DNA of 64,000 nucleotides from Phycicoccus sp. Soil802 (GTDB lineage: Bacteria; Actinomycetota; Actinomycetes; Actinomycetales; Dermatophilaceae). The stretch covers positions 125,415 through 189,414 of the forward strand of contig NZ_LMSS01000001.1 of NCBI RefSeq assembly GCF_001429605.1. Reading direction: 5' to 3'. The notes under the pieces are model-generated. The model made no database searches and was not told the origin of the DNA. It saw only the letters and a program-made list of their open reading frames with translations. Both the position numbers and the translations under genes were made by a program. Shown here in pieces: positions 1,775 to 61,967 of the stretch (the stretch's first letter is position 1; the number at the start of each line of letters is the position of its first letter).

Positions 1775-3358
1775 GTGTCATCACCCCGTCCGTCGTCCCC
1801 GCACGCCACCCTCGCGGCGGTCGCCTCGCTGGTCGACGGTGAGCTGGCCGGCGCCGACCGGGTGGTCACGGGCGTGACCCTCTCGTCGCAGGACGTGGTC
1901 GAGGGCGACCTCTACGCCGCCCTCCCCGGGGCCAACACCCACGGCGCGAGGTATGCCGCGGGGGCACGGGACGCCGGCGCGGTCGCCGTGCTCACCGACG
2001 CCGAGGGCGCCGCCGCGCTCGCCGCCGAGGGCCTCGACCTCCCGCGGGTCGTGGTCGAGGACCCGCGCAGCCACGTGGGCCAGGTGGCCTCGCTGGTCTA
2101 CGGGACCGTCGACCTCCCGCTGCAGATGTACGGCGTGACCGGGACGAACGGCAAGACCACCACGGCCTACCTCGTCAACTCGGCCCTCATCGCGTTGGGC
2201 CACACGACCGGCCTCATCGGCACGGTCGAGACCCGCATCGGGGACGAGCGGATCAAGAGCGTCCGCACGACCCCCGAGGCCACCGTCCTGCACGCCCTCC
2301 TCGCGGTGATGACCGAGCGCGGCATCGACTCCTGCGTGATGGAGGTCTCGAGCCACGCGCTGAGCCAGCACCGGGTGGACGGGGTCGTCTACGACATCGC
2401 GCTGTTCACCAACCTGTCCCAGGACCACCTCGACTTCCACCCGACGATGCGCGACTACTTCCTGGCCAAGGCCGACCTGTTCACCCCCCAGCGGTCACGC
2501 ACCGGCATCGTCTGCGTCGACGACGAGTGGGGCCGGGAGCTGGCCGCCACGATCTCCACGGTGCCCGTGACCACCGTCACCTCGCTGGCCGACGTCGACG
2601 CCGACTGGCGGCTCGTGGCGGGCGAGGAGGACCCGGCCACGTTCACGCTGTCCGACGGGTCAACGGCGCTGCACCTGCGCTCGGCCCTGCCGGGCGACTT
2701 CAACCGGGTCAACACCGCGATGGCCGCGCTGGCCCTGCTGGCTGCAGGGATCCCTGCCGACGACGCCGAGCGGGCCCTGCTCGTCGACCCGCACGTCCCG
2801 GGCCGGATGGAACGCGTGGTCGTGGAGCCGGCGGAGGGTCCCGCGACCGGCCCGGGCTCGGCCGACCTGCCGCTCGTCGTCGTCGACTACGCCCACACGC
2901 CCGATGCGGTCGCCGCGGCGCTCAAGGCGCTGCGGCCCGCGACGAGCGGACGTCTGGTCGTCGTGCTGGGCGCCGGGGGAGACCGCGACCGTGGCAAGCG
3001 GGCCGCGATGGGACGAGCCGCGGCCGAGGGCGCCGACCTGGTCGTCGTCACCGACGACAACCCGAGGTCAGAGGTCCCCGGAGCGATCCGCGCCGCGGTC
3101 CTCGACGGGGCCCGCGCCGCGGGCACCGCCGCAGAGCTGCGCGACGTCGAGGGGCGCGCGAGCGCCATCGCGCAGGCGGTCCGCGCCGCCCACGAGGCCG
3201 GCCCGGGCAGTGTCGTCGCCGTCGTCGGCAAGGGCCACGAGACCGGGCAGGAGATCGCCGGGACGGTGCACCCCTTCGACGACCGGGACGAGGCAAGACG
3301 CGCCCTCGACTCCCTGCTGGACCAGACCCCTCACGACCCGGACGGGGGAGCGCGATGA
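1775..3358 (+). CDS. murE: [32 protein letters not shown] ligase MurE
   Basis: MurE adds the third stem-peptide residue in the cytoplasmic phase of peptidoglycan synthesis. The 527-residue product has the Mur ligase order: N-terminal UDP-substrate domain, central ATPase domain with P-loop GTNGKTTT (Lys127), and C-terminal domain. The C-terminal motif DNPR near residue 426 is the one associated with diaminopimelate rather than lysine addition, so the cell wall is inferred to be DAP-type. The start is GTG, just after the ftsI stop, giving MSSPRPSS as N-terminus. The stop overlaps the murF start (ATGA), which indicates translational coupling. Contains one GTATGCCG motif at 1951, where it forces a TAT Tyr codon. 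Confidence 0.96.
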   Translation: MSSPRPSSPHATLAAVASLVDGELAGADRVVTGVTLSSQDVVEGDLYAALPGANTHGARYAAGARDAGAVAVLTDAEGAAALAAEGLDLPRVVVEDPRSHVGQVASLVYGTVDLPLQMYGVTGTNGKTTTAYLVNSALIALGHTTGLIGTVETRIGDERIKSVRTTPEATVLHALLAVMTERGIDSCVMEVSSHALSQHRVDGVVYDIALFTNLSQDHLDFHPTMRDYFLAKADLFTPQRSRTGIVCVDDEWGRELAATISTVPVTTVTSLADVDADWRLVAGEEDPATFTLSDGSTALHLRSALPGDFNRVNTAMAALALLAAGIPADDAERALLVDPHVPGRMERVVVEPAEGPATGPGSADLPLVVVDYAHTPDAVAAALKALRPATSGRLVVVLGAGGDRDRGKRAAMGRAAAEGADLVVVTDDNPRSEVPGAIRAAVLDGARAAGTAAELRDVEGRASAIAQAVRAAHEAGPGSVVAVVGKGHETGQEIAGTVHPFDDRDEARRALDSLLDQTPHDPDGGAR

Positions 3359-4803
3359 TCCCGATGTCCCTGGCGCAGGTCGCCGAGGTCACCGGTGGAC
3401 GCCTGCACGGTCTCGACGACCACGCCGCCGCGTCCCTGGTCGTCGACGGACCCGTCGTCACCGACTCCCGCGAGGCCGGTCCGGGTGGGCTCTACATCGC
3501 CCGGGTCGGTGAGCAGCTGGACGGTCACCAGTTCGTCGCCTCCGCCGCCGCGCTCGGCGCGGTGGCGGCCATGACCACCCGGCCGGTCGACGAGCTGCCC
3601 TGCGTGGTCGTCGACGACATCCAGGACGGGCTCGCGTCGCTGGCGCGCGCCGTCGTGGACCGTCACCCCGACCTCACCGTGATCGGCATCACCGGCTCGT
3701 CGGGCAAGACCTCCACCAAGGACCTGCTCGCCAGTGTGCTCTCCAGCGCCGCGCCCACCGTCGCCCCGGTCGGGTCGCTGAACTCCGAGGTGGGGGTGCC
3801 GCTGACCGTGTTCCGGGTCGAGCCGCAGACCCGGTTCCTCGTCGTGGAGATGGGCGCCAGGGGCGTCGGCCACATCGCCTACCTCACGCGAATCGCCCCG
3901 CCCCGCATAGGGATCGAGCTCAACGTCGGCTCCGCCCACGTGGGTGAGTTCGGGTCGCGCGAGGCGATCGCGGTGGCCAAGGCCGAGCTCGTGCAGGCAC
4001 TGCCCGCCACCGGCCTCGCGGTGCTCAACGTCGACGACCCCGCCGTCCGAGCCATGGCCGCCAAGACCGACGCCCGCGTGCAGCTGGTGGGGTCCGGCGC
4101 GGAGGCCGACGTGCGGGCCACGGAGACCACCCTCGACGAGTCCGGACGGCCGAGCTTCCGGGTGACGACGCCCGACGCCAGCGCCCAGGTGACCCTGCCG
4201 CTGCACGGCGAGCACCACGTCGGCAACGCCCTGGCCGTCGTGGCCGCCGCCCTCGAGTGCGGCCTGGACCTGCCCGACATCGTCGCCGCCCTGGCCACCG
4301 CCACGCCTGCCTCGCGCTGGCGGATGGAGGTCACCGAGCGCGCCGACGGGGTGACCGTCGTCAACGACGCCTACAACGCCAACCCCGACTCCATGCGCGC
4401 CGCCCTCAAGGCGCTCGTGGCCATGGGTGGCGGGCGCGGCGGCGCCGACACCGCCCCGTCGCGACGGACCTGGGCCGTGCTCGGGTCGATGCTCGAGCTG
4501 GGTGACGACTCCACGGCCGAGCACGACGCGATCGGCCGGCTCGCCGTGCGGCTCAACATCGGCAGGCTCGTCGTGGTGGGGGACACCGCCAGGCCGATGG
4601 CCTCGGGTGCCCAGCACGAGGGATCGTGGGGCGACGAGGCGGTCTGGGTGCCCGACGCGGATGCCGCGTACGCCCTGCTCACCGAAGAACTTCGTCCCGG
4701 GGACGTCGTGTTGTTCAAGTCCAGCCGCGATGCCGGACTACGGTGGCTCGGAGACAGACTGGCCGGCAAGAGCGGCGACAACAGCGAGGAGGGCACGACG
4801 TGA
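3355..4803 (+). CDS. murF: UDP-MurNAc-tripeptide--D-Ala-D-Ala ligase MurF
   Basis: MurF attaches D-Ala-D-Ala to the UDP-MurNAc tripeptide, completing the cytoplasmic precursor. The 482-residue protein starts at the ATG overlapping the murE stop ([14 protein letters not shown] follows). It shows the MurF-type P-loop [10 protein letters not shown] with the ATP-binding Lys at residue 118, and [11 protein letters not shown] in the C-terminal ligase region, a family hallmark. An open frame continues far upstream of this ATG, but that part lies over murE in another frame and has no MurF similarity. The stop overlaps the GTG of mraY. Confidence 0.96.
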
Positions 4804-61410: not shown

Positions 61411-61460
61411 GCGCCGCGAGCGCCACCCGCCGGGGACTCGAGACAGCAGGAGGAGTGGGT

Positions 61461-61967
61461 ATGCCGGGTGCGGACTTCCGCGGCCACACCTACCTCGCAC
61501 GGGTGGAGTGGAGCGGCTCGACCGGCGCGGGCTACCGCGCGTACCCGCGGGCCCACACGGCGTGGATGCCACCGGCGACCGAAGGTTTCGACCTGAGTGC
61601 CGACCCGCACTTCCGCGGTGACCCCGACCTGCCCAACCCCGAGCAGCTGCTGGTGCTGGCGGCGTCCTCGTGCCAGCTGTTGTCCTTCCTCGCGGTGGCC
61701 GCCCGAGGGGGTGTGGACGTGGTCTCCTACGAGGACGACGCAACCGGTGAGATGCCCGACGACCTGGTGCCGCAACGGATCACCCGCATCGTGCTCCGGC
61801 CGCGGGTCCGGGTGGCGCCGCACGGACCCGCGGGCCCCGACGCGGGACCGGTCGACACCGCGACCGTCGAGCGGATGCTGCACGAGGCCCACGAGCAGTG
61901 CTACATCGCCAACTCACTGACCACCGAGGTCGTCGTCGAGCCGCGCATCGAGGTCGCTCGCCGCTGA
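61461..61967 (+). CDS. OsmC family peroxidase-like protein
   Basis: OsmC/Ohr proteins reduce organic hydroperoxides with two Cys residues. The 168-residue protein has a Cys in LLVLAASSCQLLSFLAV and a second in EAHEQCYIANSLTTEVVVEP, the family arrangement. ATG 61461 was chosen because AGGAGG lies seven bases before it; an in-frame GTG two codons earlier is too close to that site. The start codon lies within a GTATGCCG motif (61459-61466). The gene begins 50 bp after gcvT. Confidence 0.9.
   Translation: MPGADFRGHTYLARVEWSGSTGAGYRAYPRAHTAWMPPATEGFDLSADPHFRGDPDLPNPEQLLVLAASSCQLLSFLAVAARGGVDVVSYEDDATGEMPDDLVPQRITRIVLRPRVRVAPHGPAGPDAGPVDTATVERMLHEAHEQCYIANSLTTEVVVEPRIEVARR

Follow-up and report, generated by a model that had tools for sequence, protein, structure and literature searches.

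The window analyzed here is a stretch of 64,000 nucleotides, C1:125415-189414 of a 4.29-Mb draft genome (G000) that we would place near Phycicoccus/Pedococcus, in a family which, from the named loci of its relatives, we take to be the Dermatophilaceae in the GTDB sense (Intrasporangiaceae included). Dispersed within and between its genes are 34 exact matches to the 8-bp word GTATGCCG, 19 in forward and 15 in reverse orientation (Table 1). The original prediction, which drew attention to the word, had listed 34 copies, and a complete exact-match count of the window found all of its coordinates right and none missed. It had also likened the word to the DNA uptake sequences (DUS) of Neisseria, the uptake signal sequences (USS) of Haemophilus and the cyanobacterial highly iterated palindrome HIP1, and a real, orientation-free, dispersed word resembling these is indeed what we find.

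Abundance and exactness of the word

Only about one copy of GTATGCCG is expected in the window, which bears out the claim of strong over-representation: 100 dinucleotide shuffles averaged 0.80 copies and never exceeded 4, and an order-3 Markov model gave 1.0. The whole genome holds 1143 + 1098 = 2241 copies on its two strands, compared with 25 + 26 = 51 of the same word read backward. In a detailed sample of 484 kb of this genome, to which the site statistics given below for this genome refer, GTATGCCG ranked first among all 8-mers with at least 20 copies (229 vs 10.2 expected); the best-ranked unrelated 8-mer was CGGGGGAG (107 vs 26.5).

GTATGCCG is an exact, sharply bounded 8-bp word. Its 24 one-letter neighbors stood at expectation (280 vs 275 in the sample and 28 vs 31.8 in the window alone). 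Some GTATG variants seem depleted in the near-neighbor table, an effect that we ascribe to GTATGCCG feeding its own Markov model. The extension to GTATGCCGCG that had been proposed for about half of the copies is common, with C at +9 in 122 and G at +10 in 161 of the 229 sites, but it is weak, the flanks carrying at most 0.42 bits per position. The backward-read control word was raised in some genera, perhaps because GCC often precedes the word there.

A simple script based on codon usage called 412-414 genes in the sample, covering about 83% of bases, and synonymous codons were shuffled within them, a conservative null because the TAT codons of GTATGCCG itself stay in the pool. Coding copies numbered 167 against 14.3 after shuffling, and 61 more sites lay outside genes in the same run. 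Neither a Markov nor a codon model, therefore, predicts the count, and an 8-mer census of the kind that the original prediction proposed, made in the sample, puts GTATGCCG at its head. The placements of the word relative to the reading frame were TAT-GCC in 93 cases, GCA-TAC in 41 and three others together in 32 (n=166). Half of the TAT codons in the sample (93 of 189) fell inside GTATGCCG, as did 15 of the 22 in the called genes of the window, in keeping with the view that most TAT codons there belong to the word. The statement that sites lie both in and between genes likewise stands and can be refined, since 60 of 229 were outside called genes, in about 17% of bases. Density outside genes was 0.96/kb in convergent, 0.82 in tandem and 0.50 in divergent gene gaps, and within genes 107 sites read on the gene strand vs 59 on the opposite one. 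With regard to how such sites arise, GTACGCCG fell short of the codon expectation in three genomes that bear the word (27 vs 62.2, 2 vs 14.0 and 3 vs 18.7), and many GTATGCCG sites may therefore have been made by silent C-to-T change.

Strand balance and local arrangement

The predicted absence of strand bias is true of the totals, although it hides a local alternation of neighboring sites in this genome. Strand counts of GTATGCCG showed no heterogeneity among stretches (several of the loci are orthologous, hence non-independent), and, with counts balanced stretch by stretch, the replichore polarity of FtsK-orienting polar sequences (KOPS) or architecture-imparting sequences (AIMS) was not seen. 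Neighboring sites in G000 were inverted in 154 cases vs direct in 72 (p 5e-8). Seventeen pairs lay within 60 bp of each other (13 convergent, 3 divergent, 1 direct) vs 6.3 by chance, and when close pairs were set aside 138 of 209 neighbors were inverted, where a model that keeps site positions and the gene-strand preference gave 102 +/- 7.3 (maximum 131 in 2000 runs). A smaller excess was found in eight other genomes pooled, two of them with tentative words of their own (270 inverted vs 196 direct, p 0.0007); of the single genomes, G178 showed the alternation clearly and G113 weakly, and G063 did not show it. To the extent that the literature was covered, such alternation is not described for known uptake words.

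The convergent close pairs of G000 form hairpins such as GTATGCCGCGTGGTGACCACGCGGCATAC. Eleven of the 13 were outside genes, nine of these at 12-31 bp from a called 3' end. A set of loci bearing the related word CGAAGGGG (see below) had 17 close pairs vs 7.9 expected, 11 of them convergent, at partly orthologous loci. The excess of hairpin pairs is thus a property of G000 and of the CGAAGGGG set, and not of all the genomes examined that carry GTATGCCG.

One part of the genome is poor in the word. The first 40 kb sampled (C1:5416-45415, L172-L173) held 3 copies vs 20.4 expected (p 2e-6), at a GC content of 0.66 vs 0.71. Nine proteins were scanned, all from the first 20 kb of this stretch. Alongside a Mu-type transposase and the AAA protein that partners it, they included a helicase, a GmrSD restriction enzyme and proteins of the AbiV/REase and EVE-domain kinds. 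Given these transposase and restriction genes, the word-poor stretch looks mobile.

Distribution and retention of GTATGCCG

All 11 genomes of the same genus were enriched for GTATGCCG, and 108 of 186 genomes in a survey of the family had at least 0.1 copies per kb, the presence level of a hand tally made with rounded genome sizes. A survey of the order comprised 396 genomes, 34 of this family and 362 from 19 other families; none of the 362 exceeded about 0.08 copies per kb, though in a few, where counts were low, the word was 2-4 times as frequent as its backward control. Beyond the order, the sample consisted of loci of about 20 kb from Nocardioides, Frankia and Kineosporia, where the word was near zero. 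Within the order, then, enrichment is confined to the family of the window. The word was missing from several genera of the family and from isolated members of positive genera (G018, G094, G124), and it looks ancestral in the family.

The sites are also kept. In pairwise alignments of 21 loci bearing GTATGCCG (flank identity below 0.6 dropped, each kept pair counted from both sides), the fraction of aligned places that kept the word was 0.40, 0.41, 0.56 and 0.83 for flank identities of 0.6, 0.7, 0.8 and 0.9, respectively, as opposed to 0.11, 0.18, 0.33 and 0.50 for permuted words; at an identity of 1.0 the word was kept in 2 of 2 cases vs 0.75. Retention of CGAAGGGG in six Janibacter loci was 0.42-0.70 vs 0.06-0.50 for permuted words. 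Lack of enrichment in relatives, or of conservation at orthologous sites, was named at the outset as an outcome that would speak against the word; relatives are enriched and their sites are kept above the level of permuted words.

Different words elsewhere in the family

Counting words de novo in stretches of Janibacter brought out CGAAGGGG(G) as a second word. Across whole genomes, CGAAGGGG numbers 1198-3180 copies in every one of the 19 genomes of the two related genera g27 and g36, where GTATGCCG has only 7-41 copies; none of the other 167 genomes of the family has more than 396. A third word, GGATGCCG, numbers 2099-4480 copies in seven genomes, which are all the surveyed members of the genera g9, g15 and g51, and does not exceed 1336 in any of the remaining 179. 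For brevity we refer to GTATGCCG as the T word and to GGATGCCG as the G word. Two genomes of g15, G046 and G047, bear both (T word 1217 and 1189, G word 2195 and 2099), and their congeners G044 and G045 have mainly the G word. Codon shuffling accounted for neither of the new words: CGAAGGGG was found 63 times vs 13.2 in G063 and 40 vs 8.1 in g36, and GGATGCCG, in a test that was run without g9, 41 vs 9.8 in G178 (with 24 more outside genes) and 14 vs 2.8 in G044. One-letter neighbors were slightly raised for both (CGAAGGGG 355 vs 283; GGATGCCG 171 vs 136). In G000 itself CGAAGGGG was under codon expectation (13 vs 27.7).

Three further dialects are tentative: GTACGCCG in g35 (44 vs 8.1 and 12 vs 3.1 by codon shuffle), CGATGCGG in G093 (51 vs 10.6, with 1 vs 1.4 in 20 kb of its congener G092, both of g32) and GTACGGCG in G094 (36 vs 10.6). 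No obvious word was seen in 28-80 kb each of G124, G018, g5, g11, g12, g16 and g53, and the sampling for words covered genera other than g2, g6, g7, g10, g28, g29 and g31. Beyond the family, five Nocardioides loci (L029, L037, L044, L046, L048) showed a rise of about three-fold in GTACGCCG (59 vs 17.1) and GTACGGCG (40 vs 13.2), which may reflect a further word system or an effect of sequence context at GTAC.

The six words, aligned by eye and post hoc and with no chance level attached, share A at position 3, G at 5 and G at 8. In trees of leuS (28 of 31 loci) and comEC (30 of 31) the CGAAGGGG species form one clade among T-word species, and the T label requires at least five changes on the tree. 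The simplest history would be one ancestral word followed by switches and losses. That related genera use different words suggests a reader protein of changing specificity, and this favors uptake over a generic nucleoid signal, two of the functions that the original prediction had offered side by side.

Candidate machinery

A search for ComEA and ComEC had been recommended, and both were found in G000 (ComEA with SLBB and HhH domains), as they were in wordless genomes. G000 also carries a tad-2-like operon. It encodes a T2SSE ATPase, two T2SSF proteins, a Tad-domain protein and a TadE protein, with another TadE-like protein that scored below cut-off, and a 69-amino-acid protein with no family match sits at the place of Flp. 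A tad-1-type ATPase above cut-off is encoded as well.

In the family survey a ComEA match at E <= 0.001 was obtained in 179 of 186 genomes (97 over cut-off) and a tad-1-type ATPase in 184 (168 over cut-off). The tad-2-type ATPase was present in 20 of 22 word genomes vs 9 of 14 wordless ones (Fisher p 0.08), in a tally that counts G093 and G099, with their tentative words, as word genomes and sets three genomes aside. At 15 loci the tad-2 operons were alike in word and wordless genomes. All of the 31 loci gave matches for comEA and comEC. The comEC match was short in two cases: that of G124, at a contig end, and that of the word-rich G145 (L157), a frame of 372 amino acids that may be a broken gene or an assembly error. 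A protein of 1449 amino acids with FtsK/SpoIIIE and FHA domains is encoded divergently from the tad-2 operon at L256 (11135-15484); relatives occur at 11 of 14 other tad-2 loci compared, with no hit at those of G124, G093 and G113.

With regard to recombination enzymes, RecC was absent from 10 of the 11 genomes of the genus, G000 included, and all 11 carry GTATGCCG. RecC was patchy across the family (89 of 186 genomes); within g4, wordless G018 has it and the word-bearing members G015, G016, G017 and G019 lack it. An adjacent pair of nucleases, found with PF12705 and presumably AdnAB-like, occurred in 34 of 34 genomes tested, wordless ones among them.

Discussion

We favor the possibility that GTATGCCG is a self-DNA uptake word for natural transformation, similar to DUS, in a monoderm phylum. 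Our reasoning for this is that most of the DUS traits examined at the sequence level are present (abundance, dialects with shared letters that follow the phylogeny, two-dialect genomes and wordless relatives). In a plausible scenario, a surface protein of a Tad/Flp-ComEA-ComEC machine would bind GTATGCCG in one direction, so that DNA of kin bearing the word would be taken up preferentially, and repeated recombination of such DNA would fill the genome with it. Drift in the specificity of the reader could then turn the set of words over to a new dialect, and where the reader was lost the words would decay. A more specific version holds that there are three or more dialects that exclude one another (GTATGCCG, GGATGCCG and CGAAGGGG), a directional reader of Tad/Flp-ComEA type and, with them, a first sequence-specific uptake language in monoderms; the two genomes with both T and G words and the local alternation of sites belong to this version, to which we would give about an even chance.

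There is precedent for much of this pattern in the Neisseriaceae, whose DUS, in the part of the study drawn on here, are described as forming dialects and inverted pairs and as having core letters, with one genome that bears two dialects and with relatives that lack the words (PMC3630211). Set against that portion of the account, the present system is alike in its thousands of exact short words, in clade dialects with common core letters, in inverted pairs that form terminator-like hairpins (here in G000 and in CGAAGGGG genomes) and in having two-dialect genomes and wordless relatives. It differs in that GTATGCCG is an 8-bp, GC-rich word in another phylum with another cell envelope, in a genus without type IVa PilM, and in that no ComP-like reader was found in it. 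In view of the missing type IVa machine, we would call the word DUS-like and stop short of classing it with the DUS; an uptake word of this family would presumably have arisen independently of those of Neisseriaceae and Pasteurellaceae. The USS of Pasteurellaceae, as far as the available text of van Passel describes them, are dispersed without a general orientation bias and come as two word types in sub-clades, and uptake sequences favor one orientation within genes and are biased toward gene ends (PMC2346458). The gene-strand preference of GTATGCCG resembles the former trait. A further comparison is with Micrococcus luteus, for which the sections covered report that both tad loci are needed for transformation and that tad together with comEA/comEC is frequent in actinobacteria (PMC4322843), as well as comEA/comEC in M. 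luteus itself (PMC6370729). G000 is comparable in having two tad-type ATPase loci and comEA/comEC; an uptake word for M. luteus goes unmentioned in those sections of the two papers (PMC4322843, PMC6370729).

Several observations weigh against an uptake word. No part of the machine tracks the word: ComEA, ComEC, the tad ATPases and the tad-2 operon occur with and without it, and we have rejected all of them, and the AdnAB-like pair with them, as presence/absence correlates. The type IVa marker PilM is found in 0 of 11 genomes of the genus, and a type IVa pilus is rejected as the uptake machine. Intragenic GTATGCCG sites of G000 lack the bias toward gene ends of the Pasteurellaceae. Close pairs are not in excess in the T-word genomes G113 (6 vs 7.3) and G127 (1 vs 1.4), nor in a mixed, partly orthologous T-word set (17 vs 20.7 expected, 13 of them divergent), so that the hairpin trait of DUS does not extend to these T-word genomes. 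Dialects do not occupy the same positions, an idea that was dropped when only 9 of 106 aligned T sites were found to read GGATGCCG in Humibacillus. Words foreign to a dialect also show some retention: in T-word species, CGAAGGGG and GGATGCCG were kept above permuted words at flank identities of 0.6-0.7 (0.27-0.33 vs 0.07-0.14) and hardly so at 0.8-0.9 (0.22-0.41 vs 0.24-0.38). Finally, a 2025 paper states, in a figure legend, that uptake in monoderms is without sequence specificity (PMC12153270).

The main rival is a Chi-like recombination word, which AdnAB, while resecting broken ends, would read in one direction as the signal to switch from degradation to recombination. Chi words are short, directional, strand-skewed and different between genera, and RecC is the Chi reader of E. 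coli. The ubiquity of AdnAB-like pairs suits such a role, and so does the neighbor alternation in G000, which fits a directional reader and would place a properly oriented site on both sides of a break within a distance of about 2 kb. However, the pairs are present in wordless genomes too, the strand counts show none of the skew of Chi, and the absence of RecC excludes RecBCD-Chi for G000, which leaves AdnAB-Chi; we consider this explanation unlikely. Somewhat more doubtful is a genome-architecture or nucleoid word read by some other protein and unrelated to uptake. The model here is HIP1 of cyanobacteria, which has in common with GTATGCCG its very high density, strand neutrality, codon override and lack of a known function; yet HIP1 is a palindrome, GTATGCCG differs from its own reverse complement, and switching of words between genera together with two-word genomes is the pattern of dialects.

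It is very unlikely that GTATGCCG is the recognition site of a DNA methyltransferase or of a restriction-modification or other self-marking system. Non-palindromic 8-mers are possible for some such systems and inverted pairs matter to type III enzymes, but restriction sites are usually avoided and not enriched 20-fold, and GTATGCCG extends across much of the family, as most restriction-modification systems do not. Hardly any weight remains for an artifact of mutation, codon pairs or composition. The depletion of GTACGCCG where GTATGCCG is high would suit it, as a one-letter silent C-to-T change could make many sites; it is already contradicted by the codon shuffle and the many sites outside genes, by the use of five frame and orientation placements, by retention at orthologous sites and by the lack of enrichment in the other families of the order.

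Dialects of uptake words have been described in two Gram-negative families. Searches of the open-licence PMC literature listed no report of GTATGCCG, or of uptake words in this family or in Actinobacteria; of 643 papers that contain its letters, the 20 listed dealt with unrelated subjects, judged by title and the opening of the abstract. If the uptake reading of GTATGCCG is true, it contradicts the statement about monoderms in the covered part of PMC12153270, and self-preference in bacterial 'sex' would have evolved independently with another envelope type and another class of pilus. With dialects that switch within it, and with some genomes that bear two words and others that bear none, the family offers many comparisons for finding the reader, and adding the right word to DNA may make soil and wastewater actinobacteria that are hard to transform tractable. 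Alternatively, if GTATGCCG proved to be a Chi word of AdnAB, it would be, to our knowledge, the first for that enzyme.

Features of the window

Table 1. Copies of GTATGCCG in the window and the palindrome formed by one convergent pair (window coordinates)
Feature	Position	Strand	Remark
GTATGCCG	1951..1958	+	exact match
GTATGCCG	4987..4994	-	exact match
GTATGCCG	6117..6124	+	exact match
GTATGCCG	9419..9426	+	exact match
GTATGCCG	9978..9985	-	exact match
GTATGCCG	11313..11320	+	exact match
GTATGCCG	14407..14414	+	exact match
GTATGCCG	14736..14743	+	exact match
GTATGCCG	15006..15013	-	exact match
Perfect palindrome with two convergent GTATGCCG	20085..20122	.	3' of open reading frame (ORF) 19122..20057; terminator-like
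GTATGCCG	20089..20096	+	left hairpin arm, 31 bp past called gene end; outside called genes
GTATGCCG	20111..20118	-	right hairpin arm; outside called genes
GTATGCCG	24285..24292	+	exact match
GTATGCCG	25697..25704	-	exact match
GTATGCCG	28836..28843	+	exact match
GTATGCCG	30782..30789	-	exact match
GTATGCCG	33264..33271	-	exact match
GTATGCCG	33393..33400	+	exact match
GTATGCCG	38667..38674	-	divergent close pair with 38691..38698, within called gene
GTATGCCG	38691..38698	+	divergent close pair with 38667..38674, within called gene
GTATGCCG	40369..40376	-	exact match
GTATGCCG	40628..40635	+	outside called genes
GTATGCCG	41190..41197	+	exact match
GTATGCCG	42971..42978	-	outside called genes
GTATGCCG	45429..45436	-	divergent close pair with 45448..45455, within called gene
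GTATGCCG	45448..45455	+	divergent close pair with 45429..45436, within called gene
GTATGCCG	46321..46328	+	exact match
GTATGCCG	49291..49298	+	outside called genes; kept in 3 of 5 nearest loci (L009, L017, L019); L015 and L020 unaligned there
GTATGCCG	50158..50165	-	exact match
GTATGCCG	52191..52198	+	kept at aligned place in 5 of 5 nearest loci (L009, L015, L017, L019, L020)
GTATGCCG	53057..53064	-	exact match
GTATGCCG	56713..56720	-	kept at aligned place in 7 of 7 Knoellia-group loci (L055, L057-L060, L062, L063)
GTATGCCG	58196..58203	+	outside called genes
GTATGCCG	59790..59797	-	exact match
GTATGCCG	61459..61466	+	outside called genes

Two other repeats were noted in the window. At the end of ORF 11974..13551 there is a tandem array (13545-13617) of an AT-richer 16-bp unit, GAAATAGGCACCGTCT, with five GAAATAGGCA cores; it holds much of the letters of the Neisseria DUS, probably by chance. 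At 49403-49458 a perfect inverted repeat of 28 nucleotides with zero spacer forms a 56-bp palindrome.

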